NCBI RefSeq assembly: GCF_024199795.1
Contig: NZ_JANADK010000001.1
Location: 5,890,001 to 5,954,000 of the forward strand
Direction of reading: 5' to 3'
Source of the DNA: Bradyrhizobium sp. CCGB01
GTDB lineage: Bacteria; Pseudomonadota; Alphaproteobacteria; Rhizobiales; Xanthobacteraceae
DNA: 64,000 nucleotides
This document shows positions 33,033 through 38,372 of this stretch, piece by piece. Made by a program: the position numbers and the translations under genes. Position 1 is the stretch's first letter; every line of letters starts with the position of its first letter. Below the pieces are notes generated by a model, which did not search any database, was not told the origin of the DNA, and was given only the letters and a program-made list of their open reading frames with translations.

Positions 33033-33044
33033 TGGCCCTCCCTC

Positions 33045-33096
33045 GTGTCCCGGACGCGGTGCGGCACGCAGTGACGCTCCGCAGGGCCGGGACCCA
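33045..33096 (+). repeat. 52-nt palindromic element, copy A
   Basis: Begins GTGTCCCGGACGCGGTGC and ends GCCGGGACCCA. It differs from the copy at 36781-36832 at only two of 52 positions. The ends GTCCCGG and CCGGGAC pair. It lies 12 nt after an SDR stop codon. Confidence 0.9.
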
Positions 33097-33121
33097 GCAG
33101 GCCGCACAACTCGCTGATACA

Positions 33122-33177
33122 TGGGCCCCGGCTCTGCAGCGCACCGCTGAAGGAGCGCTGCGCTGCGTCCGGGGCAC
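33122..33177 (-). repeat. Diverged inverted partner of palindromic element A
   Basis: A 56-nt related element in the opposite orientation to copy A, 25 nt away (starts TGGGCCCCGGCTCTGC, ends GTCCGGGGCAC). With copy A it forms a head-to-head pair, like REP doublets (REPINs) in gammaproteobacteria. The internal part is diverged. Confidence 0.75.
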
Positions 33178-33212
33178 GAGAGCGGGAGTGTGGCGCGAAA
33201 TTCTCTCCACGT

Positions 33213-33292
33213 CGTCATTGCGAGCGCAGCGAAGCAATCCAGAGTCTTTCCGCGGCGGGCTTCTGGATTGCTTCGCTGCGCTCGCAATGACG
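33213..33292. repeat. Perfect 31-bp inverted repeat
   Basis: The arm 33213-33243 (starting CGTCATTGCGAGCGCAGCGA) is exactly complementary to 33262-33292, with an 18-base spacer. Translations of this repeat (VIASAAKQS, GLLRCARND) are common spurious hypothetical peptides in alphaproteobacterial annotation. It is a mobile palindromic family rather than a gene. Confidence 0.88.
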
Positions 33293-33384
33293 GCGCGTGT
33301 GGTGATAGCGTCGCTTCTTCATTCGCATCTCTATTGCAGACACAGCTTCGCATCCTCGCGGCTTATCTCGCCCGAGCTTTGCTT

Positions 33385-33900
33385 CATCGCCTCACCCCCG
33401 ATTGAAAGAGGGCGCAGGGAAGACCGGGTGCCGGCCGGGCACCCACGGTCCACTGTGCGAAAGGTGGCAACAAGAAATTGCACAGCGGCATACAGGTGAA
33501 GCCTCAGCAACCGGCCTTCCCTGCGCAGTGGTTGGAACGGCGTATGTCGTGCTCTCCTCGGGGAGCGATGCACTATTGCCCCCGTCGCCTTGCGGATGGC
33601 TGATGTAAGCGCCCGGTTGGACGACACACATCACCGCAAGACTTGGCGCACAGACCCCGGGCGCCAGGACGACACGATTTGGCCGTACGCGGATCACACC
33701 GGTCGTGTGCGCGAGGTGTTTCGCTCACGGTGACCCGCCCCGCGAAATCCTTTGCGCCGATGTGGCCTGCGTCCACCGCCGCCCGGCCCGCGTTCGTGAC
33801 GATCGCGATACGCCCCTCTTCCTTGGGCCGGGTTGCGGCAACACATACGCCGTTTCCGAATTTCGGTAAAGTGGAATATGTTTAACGGAGTGGATTGCCC
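33385..33900. repeat. Non-coding dispersed repeat of the type mis-annotated as hypothetical proteins
   Basis: About 500 nt with short open frames in all directions but no consistent coding signal. One frame gives GAGKTGCRPGTHGPLCERW, and another VTRPAKSFAPMWPASTAARP. From memory, such peptides recur many times in Bradyrhizobium/Rhodopseudomonas genomes and mark an intergenic repeat family. No gene is called here. The boundaries are approximate. Confidence 0.55.
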
Positions 33901-33942
33901 CACCGCTCGGGTGTTTTGCCCGACGGGCAACGCACGGTCTTG

Positions 33943-34018
33943 TAGCCCGGATGAGCGAAGCGACATCCGGGATTCGCGGCATGAGTTGTCCCGGGTGTCG
34001 CTCCGCTCACCCGGGCTA
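33943..34018. repeat. Palindromic TAGCCCGG repeat
   Basis: The outer 30-nt arms (33943-33972 and 33989-34018) are complementary at 27 of 30 positions. The same TAGCCCGGAT...CCGGGCTA pattern recurs at 35298-35382. It abuts a 9-nt tandem repeat. Confidence 0.8.
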
Positions 34019-34043
34019 CGAAGTCTACGAAGTCTACGAAGTC
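34017..34043. repeat. Three tandem copies of a 9-nt unit
   Basis: TACGAAGTC repeats exactly three times. The array begins in the last bases of the TAGCCCGG palindrome. The TAG stop codon of the small membrane-protein gene (34034-34036 on the minus strand) lies inside the array, so the repeat has become the gene's end. Confidence 0.9.
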
Positions 34044-34516
34044 AGCGCTGCGATACAAAGCGCGGTCGACACCACCGACGCGACCGTCCGCACATGGTTC
34101 AAGACCACCCAATCCTTCAGATACGTCGCCCACACCACGCCCGCCTCCGGCGCGGATGGCTGTATCGCGGCGAGTGCGTTGTTGAGCGGGACGTTGAACA
34201 CCATCGTCACCACGAACATGCCGACGACATAGAGCCCGCCGCCGGCAATCATGCTCACCGCACCCGGCTCGCTGATGCGCAACACGCCCATCACCACCAG
34301 CGCGGCACCCGCCACCGTCGTGCCGAGGAACAGCGGCATGAACAGCGAGCGCACGATGTCGACGTTGATCGCGTTCATCGCCGCGATGCCGGCGGCCTGA
34401 TCGAGGCGGCCGAGCGCGGTCATGATGAAGGTCGAGAAAGCGAAATAGATTCCGGCCATCAGGCCGCAGCCGATTGCCGAAAACCAGAGAAGCCCGGTCG
34501 TCAAAACCTGCCGCAT
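34034..34516 (-). CDS. DUF1772/anthrone-oxygenase-like small membrane protein
   Basis: 160 residues with four predicted membrane spans (about 5-25, 55-78, 85-107 and 137-157). It has the family pattern of an early Phe/Tyr-rich helix (GIYFAFSTFIMTAL) and NVPLNNALAAI before the last helix. Related proteins are annotated DUF1772 or anthrone oxygenase-like; the function is unproven. It is divergent from a TetR regulator with a palindrome between them, so it is probably the regulator's target. The C terminus is set by a tandem repeat and may be slightly altered. Confidence 0.75.
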   Translation of the reverse strand: MRQVLTTGLLWFSAIGCGLMAGIYFAFSTFIMTALGRLDQAAGIAAMNAINVDIVRSLFMPLFLGTTVAGAALVVMGVLRISEPGAVSMIAGGGLYVVGMFVVTMVFNVPLNNALAAIQPSAPEAGVVWATYLKDWVVLNHVRTVASVVSTALCIAALTS

Positions 34517-34546
34517 GCCACGCCTCCGCTAAACACGATAAGTTCT

Positions 34547-34563
34547 CGCATTTGATAAATGCG
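34547..34563. promoter_or_regulatory. Probable TetR operator
   Basis: CGCATTT-GAT-AAATGCG is a perfect 7-bp inverted repeat lying between the divergent starts of the DUF1772-like gene (34516) and the TetR gene. Flanking GATAA copies widen the symmetry. The position suits repression of both genes. Confidence 0.6.
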
Positions 34564-34610
34564 ATAAACTCTCTTATTTGTGGCGTCAAGCGCAGATGGC
34601 GGGAACCAGG

Positions 34611-35300
34611 ATGAAGGACCGGACAAGCCGGACGGGCAAAGCGACGCAGGCGTCCAGGCGGCGCCCGCCGCTGGTGCCGACGCAGGAGCGGAGCCGGGAG
34701 CGGTTCGACCGCATCCTGACGGCTGCCACCGAGATCCTCGCCAAGAAAGGCGGCGATGCTTTCCGGATGAGCGACATCGTCGAGCGCACCGGAATCGCCT
34801 TCGGCTCGCTCTATCAATATTTTCCGGACAAGAGCGCCGTGATCGCGACGCTCGCCGAGCGCTGCAATGCCATCGGCCGCGACTGCGTCCAGCGCGACCT
34901 CGCCGAGATGAAGCAACTCTCCGACCTGCACGCCGCACTGTGCCGCATCACCGACGGCTACGAGCAGATGTTCCGCGAGCACCCCGTGGCGCATCACATC
35001 TGGCAGGCGACACAGGCCGACCGAAGCTTGCAGAAGATCGACGAGGAGGATGTCACCTTTCTCGCCGGCCTGCTCAGCGATGCATTGAAGCGGGTCGCGC
35101 CTGCTGTCCCGGCGGCCGCCCTCGCCTCTTTCACACAATTGACGATGGTGCTGATCGCAGCCGCTGTGCGCCATGCGATCATCCTGCCGCCTGCCGAAGG
35201 CCGGCGGTCGCTCGCGCTGTTCAAGCAGGTTTTGCCGCGCGATCTCGCTGCGGTGGAACAAATCGCGGGTAAGACCGTCAAGCAACGCGCTACCTGGTAG
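34611..35300 (+). CDS. TetR family transcriptional regulator
   Basis: 229 residues from ATG 34611, which has GGGA 6 nt upstream; an ATG at 34596 is also possible. The N-terminal helix-turn-helix reads ILTAATEILAKKGGDAFRMS, then IVERTGIAFGSLYQYFPDKS. The C-terminal ligand domain is unassigned. The protein ends QRATW at a TAG that is the first triplet of an intergenic palindrome (35298-35382), so the repeat supplies the stop. It likely controls itself and the divergent small membrane protein. Confidence 0.88.
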   Translation: MKDRTSRTGKATQASRRRPPLVPTQERSRERFDRILTAATEILAKKGGDAFRMSDIVERTGIAFGSLYQYFPDKSAVIATLAERCNAIGRDCVQRDLAEMKQLSDLHAALCRITDGYEQMFREHPVAHHIWQATQADRSLQKIDEEDVTFLAGLLSDALKRVAPAVPAAALASFTQLTMVLIAAAVRHAIILPPAEGRRSLALFKQVLPRDLAAVEQIAGKTVKQRATW

Positions 35301-35382
35301 CCCGGATGGAGCGAAGCGTAATCTGGCGGTCCTGCAAGCGGATGCAGTGGTCCCGGATTGCGCTACGCTCCATCCGGGCTAC
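35298..35382. repeat. Palindromic TAGCCCGGAT repeat
   Basis: The ends TAGCCCGGATGGAGCG and CGCTCCATCCGGGCTA are inverted copies. It is the same family as 33943-34018. Its first three bases are the stop codon of the TetR gene. It lies between TetR and the deacylase gene. Confidence 0.8.
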
Positions 35383-35472: not shown

Positions 35473-36645
35473 ATGCCAAATTCAAGACCCGACCGTATCC
35501 GAACACTCCTCGCCGACCTCGTCGGCTTCGACACCGTCAGTGACCGCACCAACCTGCCCCTGATCACGCACATCGAAAGCTATCTCGCCGCGCTCGGCGT
35601 CAAGAGCGATCGCATCGTCGACGAGACCGGACAGAAGGCTTCGCTCTGGGTCACGATCGGGCCCGAGGATCGGCCCGGGCTCGTGCTGTCGGGGCACACC
35701 GACGTCGTGCCCGTTGTCGGCCAGGACTGGAGCCACGATCCGTTCAGACTGATCGAGCGCGACGGCAAGCTCTACGGCCGCGGCACCACCGACATGAAGG
35801 GTTTTGTCGCGGTGTGCCTTGCGATGGTGCCGGAGATGCTGGAGGCGAAGCTCAACACACCGATTCATCTGGCGATTTCCTATGACGAGGAGATCGGCTG
35901 CGTCGGCGTGCGGCCGATGCTGCGCGAGGTCGCGAAGAAGAGGGTCAAGCCGTTAGGCGCCTTCATCGGCGAGCCGACTGAGATGAAAGTCATCATCGGC
36001 CACAAGGGCAAGCACGGCGTACGCGCGACGTTCCACGGCCTCGCCCGTCACTCCTCGATCGCGCCCGAAGGCGTCAACGCCATCGAATATGCCGCCGAGC
36101 TGATCGTCGAAATCCGCCGCCGCGCCGTCCAGCTCGCGGCCGTACGATCAAACGACAGCCTCTACGACGTTCCGCACTCGACGCTGCTGACCAGCATCGT
36201 TCATGGCGGCGCGGCGCTCAACATCGTGCCCGATAGCTGCACGGTGGATTTCGAATGCCGCGGCATCGGCATCACCGAGTCGCGCGAGGTGACGGATGCG
36301 ATCGTCGCCTGGGCCAAAGCCGAGCTCGAACCGGCGATGAAGGCGCGACATCCGGAGTGCGGCATCGATTTCGAGGAGATCCTCGACTACCCCGCCCTCG
36401 ACACCAGGGCCGATGCCGCCATCGTCACGCTCGCCAAGAGTCTCGCCGGCCGCAACGACCACGCCAAGGTCGCCTTCGGCACCGAGGCGAGCCTGTTCGC
36501 CAGCATGGCCGACATCCCGTCGGTGGTGATCGGCCCCGGCTCGATCGCACAGGCGCATACGCCGGATGAATTCGTGGAGATGGCAGAGCTGGAGAAATGC
36601 GCGGGGTTTGTGGAGAAGCTGATCGCGCGTTGTGTGAAGGAGTAG
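35473..36645 (+). CDS. argE: Acetylornithine deacetylase or related M20 metallohydrolase
   Basis: 390 residues from ATG 35473 (MPNSRPDRIRTLLADLVGFD). M20-family metal ligands and catalytic residues are in place: H75 and D77 in SGHTDVVPV, D107 in GRGTTDMKG, E139/E140 in SYDEEIG. The dimerisation domain contains HGVRATFHGLARHSSIAPEG, and the C-terminal metal histidine is in GSIAQAHTPDEF. The closest match in memory is ArgE, which makes ornithine from N-acetylornithine. Related M20 deacylases look alike, so the symbol is likely rather than certain. An open frame upstream is repeat sequence. The ribosome-binding site is weak. Confidence 0.82.
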   Translation: MPNSRPDRIRTLLADLVGFDTVSDRTNLPLITHIESYLAALGVKSDRIVDETGQKASLWVTIGPEDRPGLVLSGHTDVVPVVGQDWSHDPFRLIERDGKLYGRGTTDMKGFVAVCLAMVPEMLEAKLNTPIHLAISYDEEIGCVGVRPMLREVAKKRVKPLGAFIGEPTEMKVIIGHKGKHGVRATFHGLARHSSIAPEGVNAIEYAAELIVEIRRRAVQLAAVRSNDSLYDVPHSTLLTSIVHGGAALNIVPDSCTVDFECRGIGITESREVTDAIVAWAKAELEPAMKARHPECGIDFEEILDYPALDTRADAAIVTLAKSLAGRNDHAKVAFGTEASLFASMADIPSVVIGPGSIAQAHTPDEFVEMAELEKCAGFVEKLIARCVKE

Positions 36646-36664
36646 ACGATATCCGTAACTTGAC

Positions 36665-36717
36665 TGGGTCCCGGCTCTGCGCAGCAACGCTTACGCGTTG
36701 CAGCGCGTCCGGGACGC
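36665..36717 (-). repeat. 52-nt palindromic element, copy B (inverted)
   Basis: The same ends as copies A, C and D, starting TGGGTCCCGGCTCTGC and ending GTCCGGGACGC, in the opposite orientation to copy C 63 nt away. The centre is diverged and forms its own hairpin (GCAACGC-TTAC-GCGTTGC). Confidence 0.85.
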
Positions 36718-36780
36718 GACACTGCCCCGCTAATCCGCATCTACGGCGAGAGAGATGTGAACACCGGAAAATCCGGTCTC

Positions 36781-36832
36781 GTGTCCCGGACGCGGTGCGG
36801 CACGAAGTGACGCTCCGCAGAGCCGGGACCCA
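36781..36832 (+). repeat. 52-nt palindromic element, copy C (left flank of the GIY-YIG gene)
   Basis: Identical to the reverse complement of copy D (37202-37253) at 48 of 52 positions and to copy A (33045-33096) at 50 of 52. It ends 71 nt before the GIY-YIG start codon. Confidence 0.92.
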
Positions 36833-36903
36833 GAGTGCTTGGCGGCGGCATTGAAACATGCAACTTTAGAGCGTATCGCCATCGACACAGTGGCTGCGCA
36901 GAC

Positions 36904-37200
36904 ATGCCTTTCTTCGTTTACATCCTCGCCAGCAAACGAAACGGTACTCTCTACATCGGAGTGACCAACGACCTCGCCCGTAGAATGACCGAACACAAAG
37001 CCAAGCTGATACCCGGCTTCACGCGGCTGTATGACGTCACATTGTTAGTCTATTTCGAAATCTTCGAGTCGATACTCGAGGCGCGCTCACGCGAACATTC
37101 GCTGAAGCGTTGGCGACGCGCGTGGAAGCTTAAGCTCATCGAAGAGCTCAATCCGGATTGGCGCGATCTCACCGATGAACTGAATACTTTGGCGACATGA
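36904..37200 (+). CDS. Single-domain GIY-YIG endonuclease-like protein
   Basis: 98 residues from ATG 36904. The GIY-YIG fold hallmarks appear in order: FFVYILAS, LYIGVTNDLARRM with the catalytic Arg, EHK, and FESILEARSREHSLKRWRRA with the metal-binding Glu. This is the stand-alone (UvrC N-terminal-like) subfamily of unknown role. There is no clear ribosome-binding site. The gene sits between two inverted copies of a 52-nt palindrome, and its TGA ends one base before the right copy. Base composition appears less GC-rich than in its neighbours. The arrangement suggests a selfish or domesticated unit; the function is not established. Confidence 0.85.
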   Translation: MPFFVYILASKRNGTLYIGVTNDLARRMTEHKAKLIPGFTRLYDVTLLVYFEIFESILEARSREHSLKRWRRAWKLKLIEELNPDWRDLTDELNTLAT

Positions 37201-37201
37201 C

Positions 37202-37253
37202 TGGGTCCCGGCTCTGCGGAGCAGCACTTCGCGCTGCACCGCGTCCGGGACAC
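37202..37253 (-). repeat. 52-nt palindromic element, copy D (right flank of the GIY-YIG gene)
   Basis: Inverted copy of element C, with four differences in 52 positions. It starts one base after the GIY-YIG stop codon. Together C and D form terminal inverted repeats around about 370 nt. Confidence 0.92.
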
Positions 37254-37313
37254 AAGAGTTTTCGGCGAACCACAAACTAAAAAGCGCGGCCATCAGCCGC
37301 GCCCTTGTCTCAC

Positions 37314-38372
37314 CTACCCCGCGCCGGCCTTCTGCGCGTATTCCCATGAGGCCTTCGACAGCGGCACGGTGCGCTTGGCGGACTCCAGCGCCTTGGCGTT
37401 GGCGGCGGTGCCATCGCGGACGCGGCCGGCGATGCCCTGGGTGATACCGGCGAGGCGGAACAGATTGTAGGCGAAGTACCAGTTGAGGTCGGGCACCGTC
37501 ATCTTGGTGACGTTGCAATAGATCTGCGCCGCCTCCTCCACGCTCGGGATGTTGAGCGCCTTGAGGTCGGCGCCCTCAAGGCCCGGCATGATCCACTGCA
37601 TCAAGAGATAAGTGAAGTCGGCCATGGGATCGCCAAGCGTCGACAGTTCCCAGTCGAGCACGGCCTGCACGCGCGGTTCCGTCGCGTGGAAAATCATGTT
37701 GTCGAGGCGATAGTCGCCGTGGACGATCGAGACGCGCGCCTGCTCCGGCACGGTCTTGGGCAGCCATTCGGCCACCTTCTCGAACTCCGGAATGTGCTGG
37801 GTCTCGGACGCCCGGTACTGCTTGGTCCAGCGGTCGATCTGCCGTGCAAAGTAGTTGCCGGGCTTGCCGAACTCGCCGAGCCCGATCGCGACGGGATCGT
37901 ACATGTGGAGCTTTGCCAGCGTCTCGATCTTGCTGGTGAAGATCTTCCGGCGCGCGTCGGCATCCTGGCTCGGCAGCGTCGGATCCCAGAACACCCGGCC
38001 GTCCTCCATCGACATGATGTAGAAGGCGGCGCCGATGATGCTGTCGTCCTGGCACAGCGCATAGGCGTGTGCGACCGGAAAGCCCTGCTTTCCAAGGGCC
38101 GCAATGACGCGATATTCGCGATCGACCGCGTGGGCCGACGGCAGCAATTTGCCGAACGGCTTGCGGCGCATCACGTAGGAGCGGTTCGGCGTGTTGAGCC
38201 GGTAGGTCGGATTCGACTGGCCGCCCTTGAACTGGAGAACGACCAGCGGGCCCTCATAGCCCTCGACGTTGTCGCGCATCCAAGCTTCCAGGCGCAGCTC
38301 GTCGAAACGATGCCGCTCCTCGACCGGCTTGGTGCCCGAGAATTCTTCGTCTTTCCTGACGCCGTCAGCCAC
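37314..38372 (-). CDS. Aminoglycoside phosphotransferase-like kinase (ACAD10/11-type kinase domain)
   Basis: 352 residues. The kinase-like fold has Lys71 in VMRRKPFGK and a Glu in HAVDREYRV. The catalytic loop is HGDYRLDN (218-225) and the metal motif DWELSTLGDP (240-249). All residues needed for phosphotransfer are present. This subfamily matches the kinase part of mammalian ACAD10/11 and LvaA of Pseudomonas levulinate catabolism, which phosphorylate 4-hydroxyacyl-CoA. An acyl-CoA dehydrogenase gene lies directly upstream on the same strand, giving the same pair as separate genes. The exact acyl chain is unknown. Confidence 0.85.
   Translation of the reverse strand: MADGVRKDEEFSGTKPVEERHRFDELRLEAWMRDNVEGYEGPLVVLQFKGGQSNPTYRLNTPNRSYVMRRKPFGKLLPSAHAVDREYRVIAALGKQGFPVAHAYALCQDDSIIGAAFYIMSMEDGRVFWDPTLPSQDADARRKIFTSKIETLAKLHMYDPVAIGLGEFGKPGNYFARQIDRWTKQYRASETQHIPEFEKVAEWLPKTVPEQARVSIVHGDYRLDNMIFHATEPRVQAVLDWELSTLGDPMADFTYLLMQWIMPGLEGADLKALNIPSVEEAAQIYCNVTKMTVPDLNWYFAYNLFRLAGITQGIAGRVRDGTAANAKALESAKRTVPLSKASWEYAQKAGAG

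Follow-up and report, generated by a model that had tools for sequence, protein, structure and literature searches.

The window (the whole stretch of 64,000 nucleotides analysed here) covers bases 5890001-5954000 of a 9.32-Mb Bradyrhizobium genome present as one contig. Two convergent open reading frames, one ending at 36645 (which we take to be deacetylase-like) and the other at 37314 (presumably phosphotransferase-like), enclose a GIY-YIG mini-nuclease gene and three copies of a palindromic repeat. In order, these are copy B (36658..36715, plus strand), copy C (36777..36833, minus strand), the nuclease gene (36904..37200, plus strand; ATG at 36904, stop codon at 37198-37200, 98 codons plus stop) and copy D (37201..37257, plus strand). 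The repeat match of D begins right behind the nuclease stop codon. Copy C is inverted relative to D, lies some 70 bp ahead of the ATG and forms the upstream arm of the flank comparison described below (-127 to -70 relative to the gene). Copy B, which had been predicted to lie outside the C-D bracket, was placed there as an outer upstream copy in the orientation of D, of which it is a direct repeat. The stand-alone 98-residue GIY-YIG protein announced between inverted C and D was recovered as an intact gene with a PF01541 domain (64.2 bits; gathering score 22.6).

The original prediction described a dispersed 52-nt palindrome. Alignment confirmed both of its identity figures, 50/52 between copies A and C and 48/52 between C and the reverse complement of D. 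The inverted copies stood, but the perfect palindrome did not: each copy is instead an imperfect hairpin of about 55 nt, in which the self-complementary positions of the 52-mer, counted without gaps, number 22/52 in C and 24/52 in D. RNA folding of A, B, C and D gave -29 to -35 kcal/mol. The window's own repeat type carries a CGTG tag, a GTCCCGG/CCGGGAC stem and a CCA tail.

Dispersal was likewise borne out. Copy D as query found at least 15 matches in the genome at E≤1e-3 (40 of the 49 first-look candidates were scored), among them three inverted pairs that enclose no gene, have spacers of 24-28 bp and share the layout of C and D around the nuclease gene. Copy A (33042..33097, minus strand) is the left half of one gene-free inverted pair, whose right half (33122..33182, plus strand) is 75% identical to D. 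The window nuclease as query matched only itself in its genome at E≤1e-3; the search with alignment A1 counts a second nuclease match there. Several REP families lie side by side in a 2.4-kb part of the window (33042-35382), with a CGTCATTGCGAG-type pair at 33210-33295 next to the own-type pair and two GTAGCCCGG-type pairs at 33942-34019 and 35297-35382.

Inverted repeats flank the nuclease gene in many bacteria

For each locus, the 300 bp upstream of the gene were aligned to the reverse-complemented 300 bp that follow it. The score threshold of 40 was chosen after the genus controls (maximum 39) had been seen, and all later sets were judged by it unchanged. Control intervals are random places, unmatched to intergenic regions; for the genus, the 40 loci that had flanks of 2.5 kb supplied 400 shifted intervals.

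The window protein matched 187 of the 195 Bradyrhizobium genomes searched, and 70 genus loci were assembled (the window's, 29 from that search and 40 from the upper part of the match list). Inverted repeats flank the nuclease in 60 of these 70 loci, whereas 0/400 shifted intervals reached the threshold, so that flanking in related genomes is above chance. In one of the ten failures (L019), the reading frame continues through the palindrome. Across the Pseudomonadota, 57/89 loci were flanked (control intervals 0/528; L090 and L091 of this set duplicate genus-set loci). Without the window genus the count was 52/84, and at least one flanked locus was found in 43/60 genera with the window genus included; both totals include L175, whose flank is too short. 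Among the best 80 loci listed from GTDB species genomes, 56/79 were flanked (controls 0/480; one locus had too little flank). The sub-threshold loci thus number 10/70, 32/89 and 23/79 in the genus, Pseudomonadota and GTDB sets. Flanked loci came from records titled Nitrospira, Planctomycetes, Deltaproteobacteria, Nitrospinae, Scalindua and Neisseria, among others, and loci titled Ignavibacteria, Myxococcota and both Anaerolineae fell below the threshold; single taxon assignments may err because many records are MAGs.

Genes of a related kind served as a further control. UPF0213-like GIY-YIG genes, taken from 30 genomes with only weak matches in the Pseudomonadota nuclease search, were flanked in 0/30 loci (maximum score 25), one more match having no locus to go with it; the label was given to L286 by a match to UPF0213 chains at 1e-14 or better and to the others by look. 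Their similarity to the nuclease family is weak (E 1e-9 to 5e-4 and 22-40 bits with alignment A1, against at least 105 bits for the listed family members), and NCBIfam named 0/8 of these controls. When a script with a looser tag was used, tagged hairpins were found on both sides within 200 bp in 123/236 loci, with outward-pointing tags in 81 of those 123, and in 0/1180 control intervals of the same loci and 0/30 UPF0213-like genes. Outside the window genus, most arms resemble CGTC-tagged REPs. A GTCAT motif occurs in an arm of 47/57 flanked Pseudomonadota loci and 53/56 flanked GTDB-set loci, CGTCAT in 39/57 and 48/56, and GTCAT together with ATCCA in 34/57 and 48/56, respectively.

A family of stand-alone GIY-YIG nucleases of about 95 aa mostly sits between inverted hairpin repeats. 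REPs might simply collect in intergenic regions beside any small gene, by chance or insertion bias, and several REP families do collect in the same intergenic sites. With 0/1408 control intervals and 0/30 UPF0213-like genes flanked, this explanation is largely refuted and we regard it as barely credible. Homologues without flanking copies had been named in advance as the outcome that would speak against a link between gene and palindrome, and the three sets of loci came out the other way. The generality of the arrangement was under-called by the original prediction: the palindromes are clade-specific within the genus, and the nuclease family with CGTC-type palindromes turns up under record titles of several phyla.

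Palindrome types differ between nuclease clades in the genus

Within the genus, the commonest repeat motif within 200 bp of the gene tracked the nuclease clade in 70/70 loci. The own clade occurs with the GTCCCGG type (31/31 loci), the ATTCCGGG type goes with two clades at about 53% identity (23/23) and a third repeat type with a clade near 60% identity (16/16). Each protein was put in the clade of whichever of four reference proteins was nearest, and the repeat motifs were defined after the arms had been viewed, the third being a set of alternatives. Five genomes of the genus hold two paralogs, and each paralog lies beside its own repeat type. Among the 113 flanked loci of the two wider sets, repeat similarity was correlated with protein similarity (r=0.57, 0/5000 permutations; within-genus pairs were omitted where the genus was known). 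Shared ancestry may explain part of this correlation; the two-paralog genomes are less open to that objection. Each Bradyrhizobium nuclease clade has its own palindrome type.

The hairpins themselves show paired change. In 70 distinct own-type palindromes, 7 of the 12 free predicted pairs were changed on both sides with standard pairing kept, a count that is optimistic owing to related sequences; the other 8 of the 20 predicted pairs were fixed by the search pattern.

CGTC-tagged repeats are more often abundant where the nuclease is present

In the part of Di Nocera 2013 (PMC3733652) available to us, REPs are split into GTAG and CGTC superfamilies. The latter takes in Neisseria dRS3 and Rickettsia RPE-4/RPE-6; a dedicated transposase is described there as absent, tyrosine transposase genes were not found with CGTC repeats on their flanks, and GTAG REPs are reported to occur in Bradyrhizobium also. 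Compared with the CGTC consensus, the window's own repeat has a CGTG tag and no leading AT pairs but keeps the CCA tail, so that it falls outside the class as defined by the tag, an AT-starting stem and the CCA tail; by eye, the repeats of other Bradyrhizobium clades fall within it. The window repeats share the habit of CGTC REPs of being dispersed, often as inverted pairs.

The pattern CGTCATNCCN{6,30}GGNATCCA had at least one match in 199/397 Pseudomonadota genomes, and its reversed control had zero in nearly all genomes. A strong nuclease match was defined by E<1e-14, a cut chosen in a gap of the scores. Of the 113 genomes that have one, 62 contain four or more pattern matches, versus 23 of the 284 others (odds ratio 13.8, p=1.2e-22); when the window genus is left out, the odds ratio is 12.1 (p=7e-19). 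Permutation within 20 families, covering 246/397 genomes and leaving out the mixed family f47, gave 0/20000. Copy number unrelated to the presence of the gene had been named as a second sign of a chance link, and the two proved to be related. This was also seen inside the genus, where the D-type repeat had a median of 87.5 candidates in genomes with the own clade versus 44.5 in those without (p=2.5e-5), as judged from rough first-look candidates, of which four per genome were scored, in 186/195 genomes with nine left out. Fourteen Bradyrhizobium genomes that lack the own clade had at least 100 such candidates and three with it had fewer than 40. In 25 named nuclease-holding genomes, which were picked for the nuclease and so offer no test of association, the CGTC pattern occurred at least once in 25/25.

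The exceptions run both ways. Fewer than four strict-pattern matches were found in 51/113 nuclease genomes, and repeats with other stems would escape the pattern. Conversely, 23/85 REP-rich genomes lacked a strong member of the nuclease family; some nucleases were possibly missed because at most 12 candidates per Pseudomonadota genome were scored. When these 23 genomes were searched again with a 43-row alignment and all candidates scored, 10 matched at E≤1e-3 (best 1e-14) and 13 gave no nuclease match. Thirteen matches from the repeated search were inspected, and only one (L397) had flanking repeats scoring at least 40 (L398 was misplaced, on a 3-residue frame). At L397, in a genome of the same order (G222), a different GIY-YIG clade lies between inverted CATCCTGAGG-type palindromes with a score of 85, possibly another nuclease-palindrome pair. 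In REP-rich genomes without the nuclease, the repeats could have outlived the enzyme. The window genome itself has 34 matches to the CGTC-REP pattern, and the cognate clades are absent from its window-protein search, which makes these orphan repeats.

Palindromes come and go at orthologous sites

Relatives with and without the unit at the orthologous site, which the original prediction had proposed to look for, were found. The site of the unit was compared in 30 loci including the window's, of which six hold full units, three a single palindrome and one an internal-deletion derivative. The 20 others are without the own repeat type, several of them having other REP families by eye; for three of them, the search did not locate the upstream gene. 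At the internal-deletion locus (L275 in G061), only a piece of the nuclease gene of about 100 bp matches between two palindromes; this remnant is a natural non-autonomous derivative. In G029, which has a single palindrome at the site, both outer junctions match the full unit of G064 by eye.

Homing is a classic role of GIY-YIG nucleases. The single palindrome that three genomes have at the unit site, with the G029 junctions matching the full unit of G064, and a weak match of the nuclease to a PHROG homing endonuclease family are what would be expected if the enzyme cut single palindromes and the unit were then copied in by recombination between palindromes, a process that spreads the gene and not the repeats. 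Single palindromes would also be left if B and D, which are direct repeats, recombined, however, and repeats outnumber gene copies, so something spreads repeats to palindrome-free sites. We therefore consider homing improbable.

Two gene-free pairs were followed in the same way; the counts are not frequencies because ten loci at each site were chosen for looking short. At site 1, 32 loci were examined (seven further loci lie outside this number): 19 are filled, with 117-190 nt between the anchors, nine are empty, with 8-21 nt, and four are others. At site 2, 23 of 39 loci hold an own-type or mixed pair, seven are palindrome-free (17-32 nt), four have a GTAG-type pair and five have remnants. 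Whole palindrome pairs are thus gained or lost at fixed places, which does not indicate the enzyme responsible. By eye, no convincing target duplication of the kind left by insertion sequences and MITEs was seen at the two sites, where the genomes are too divergent for base-exact breakpoints. L342, L354, L380-L382 and L385 show CGTC and GTAG REP families at a common intergenic site from one genome to another, suggestive of a shared target preference or tolerance.

The GTAG pairs at some of the same sites, and the GTAG REPs reported from Bradyrhizobium (PMC3733652, as far as available), would fit a scheme in which the repeats are moved by RAYTs or other transposases, with the GIY-YIG gene as a passenger. 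A passenger is not expected to match the repeat type by clade in 70/70 loci, though, and the available part of the same paper reports that tyrosine transposase genes between CGTC repeats were not found; we hold this scheme to be very improbable.

The enzyme is conserved and under purifying selection

In 43 sequences picked for diversity, mostly from flanked loci, Y17 and E64 are invariant and Y6 and R27 are conserved in at least 90%; we take the conserved Tyr, Tyr, Arg and Glu to be the catalytic residues of the nuclease. The C-terminal stretch of the same 43 sequences has invariant R63, E64, K68, W70, R72, W74, K75 and W86. The dN/dS ratio was 0.068 over 136 pairs of 17 own-clade copies and 0.05-0.08 in three other clades (eight loci and 28 pairs each, of which 14, 26 and 27 could be used), and the gene is under strong purifying selection. 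An AlphaFold2 model of the window nuclease had a mean pLDDT of 95.1. Its only match at E≤0.001 among solved structures was a UPF0213 protein, followed at E 0.007-0.1 by another UPF0213 protein and then Slx1. The sequence search for a solved close relative likewise gave only two UPF0213 proteins (1zg2 and 1ywl). A search for a defence role with PADLOC gave no match. A phage origin was considered and rejected, with only two weak PHROG matches, one of them the homing endonuclease family.

Purifying selection, the predicted fold akin to Slx1 and the many own-clade copies in one common genomic place, from which the gene itself seems to move rarely, would suit a domesticated enzyme that the host uses on REP hairpins or cruciforms at replication, or for self-regulation, while the repeats spread otherwise. 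By itself such a host function leaves three observations unexplained, namely the two-sided bracketing with outward tags, the separate repeat types of paralogs in the same genome and the gene-free pairs with a unit-like layout. We consider it unlikely as the full account.

A putative nuclease-REP system

The pairing of nuclease and repeat is well supported. As the probable explanation of the locus we propose, by analogy with RAYT/REP, that the nuclease gene belongs together with its palindromes in one cognate nuclease-REP system, in which a GIY-YIG enzyme spreads the repeats. From the cognate types, the compensatory changes and the fold, we infer that the nuclease recognises the hairpin; that it mobilises the repeats is suggested by the analogy. 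The original idea of a GIY-YIG counterpart to the RAYT/REP pair is supported by the flanking and abundance tests. The 23 REP-rich genomes that lack a strong family member are a main source of doubt and, with the 14 repeat-rich Bradyrhizobium genomes without the own clade, speak against a strict dependence. The orphan CGTC repeats of the window genome, the 51 nuclease genomes with few strict-pattern matches, the loci below the threshold, the absence of a clear target duplication at the two sites and the apparently rare movement of the gene also count against the proposal.

In the proposed mechanism, the nuclease would recognise its own hairpin in single-stranded lagging-strand DNA or in an extruded cruciform and would nick near the hairpin base. 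The nick could release or copy the palindrome pair, which host repair would join elsewhere, and gene-free pairs would be non-autonomous derivatives of the gene-bearing unit. The hydrolytic GIY-YIG enzyme would take the place of the HuH transposase in a RAYT/REP-like scheme.

Members of this nuclease family are paired with matching repeats in widely different bacteria, and the enzyme may thus be the partner that these REPs had seemed to lack. A wider claim, for and against which we see the balance as even, is that small GIY-YIG nucleases are dedicated mobilisers of CGTC repeats, including those like Neisseria dRS3, with no other recombinase and in parallel to RAYT/REP. CGTC REPs, one of the two large REP superfamilies in the available part of Di Nocera 2013 (PMC3733652), hereby gain a named candidate enzyme with clade-specific substrates, which makes the open question of a CGTC transposase directly testable at the bench. 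If the nuclease does mobilise the repeats, GIY-YIG enzymes would have to be added to those that move repeats in bacterial DNA, and the REP/REPIN way of life would have arisen a second time, independently. Such DNA elements would form a class whose sole protein is a GIY-YIG hydrolase, with no HuH, DDE, serine or tyrosine recombinase.

Comparison with known systems

Among the open-access matches listed, as judged from titles and the starts of abstracts, none linked GIY-YIG genes to REPs. In the available part of a 2025 REP survey (PMC12306157), the terms GIY, nuclease, RAYT and transposase are absent. The CGTC REPs of Di Nocera 2013 (PMC3733652, in the part available) are described without a transposase gene, whereas here a GIY-YIG gene lies between such repeats.

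By sequence and predicted fold, the closest solved structures to the nuclease are the UPF0213 proteins 1zg2 and 1ywl. GIY-YIG homing endonucleases and Slx1, which acts on branched DNA, share its catalytic fold; compared with these, the window nuclease is a single small domain.

In RAYT/REP systems, the gene lies between inverted palindromes, the palindromes are of clade-specific types and gene-free inverted pairs are dispersed in the genome. The RAYT is a HuH tyrosine transposase and its REPs are GTAG-tagged. The window-type nuclease gene, too, has inverted copies of its own repeat type on both sides, the palindrome types of the genus are likewise clade-specific, and gene-free inverted pairs are also dispersed in the Bradyrhizobium genome. 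Unlike in RAYT/REP, the bracketed gene encodes a GIY-YIG protein and not a HuH tyrosine transposase, and the tags are CGTC, or CGTG in the window type, and not GTAG. The nuclease-REP pair thus looks like RAYT/REP in its apparent working and departs from it in the defining enzyme and tag.
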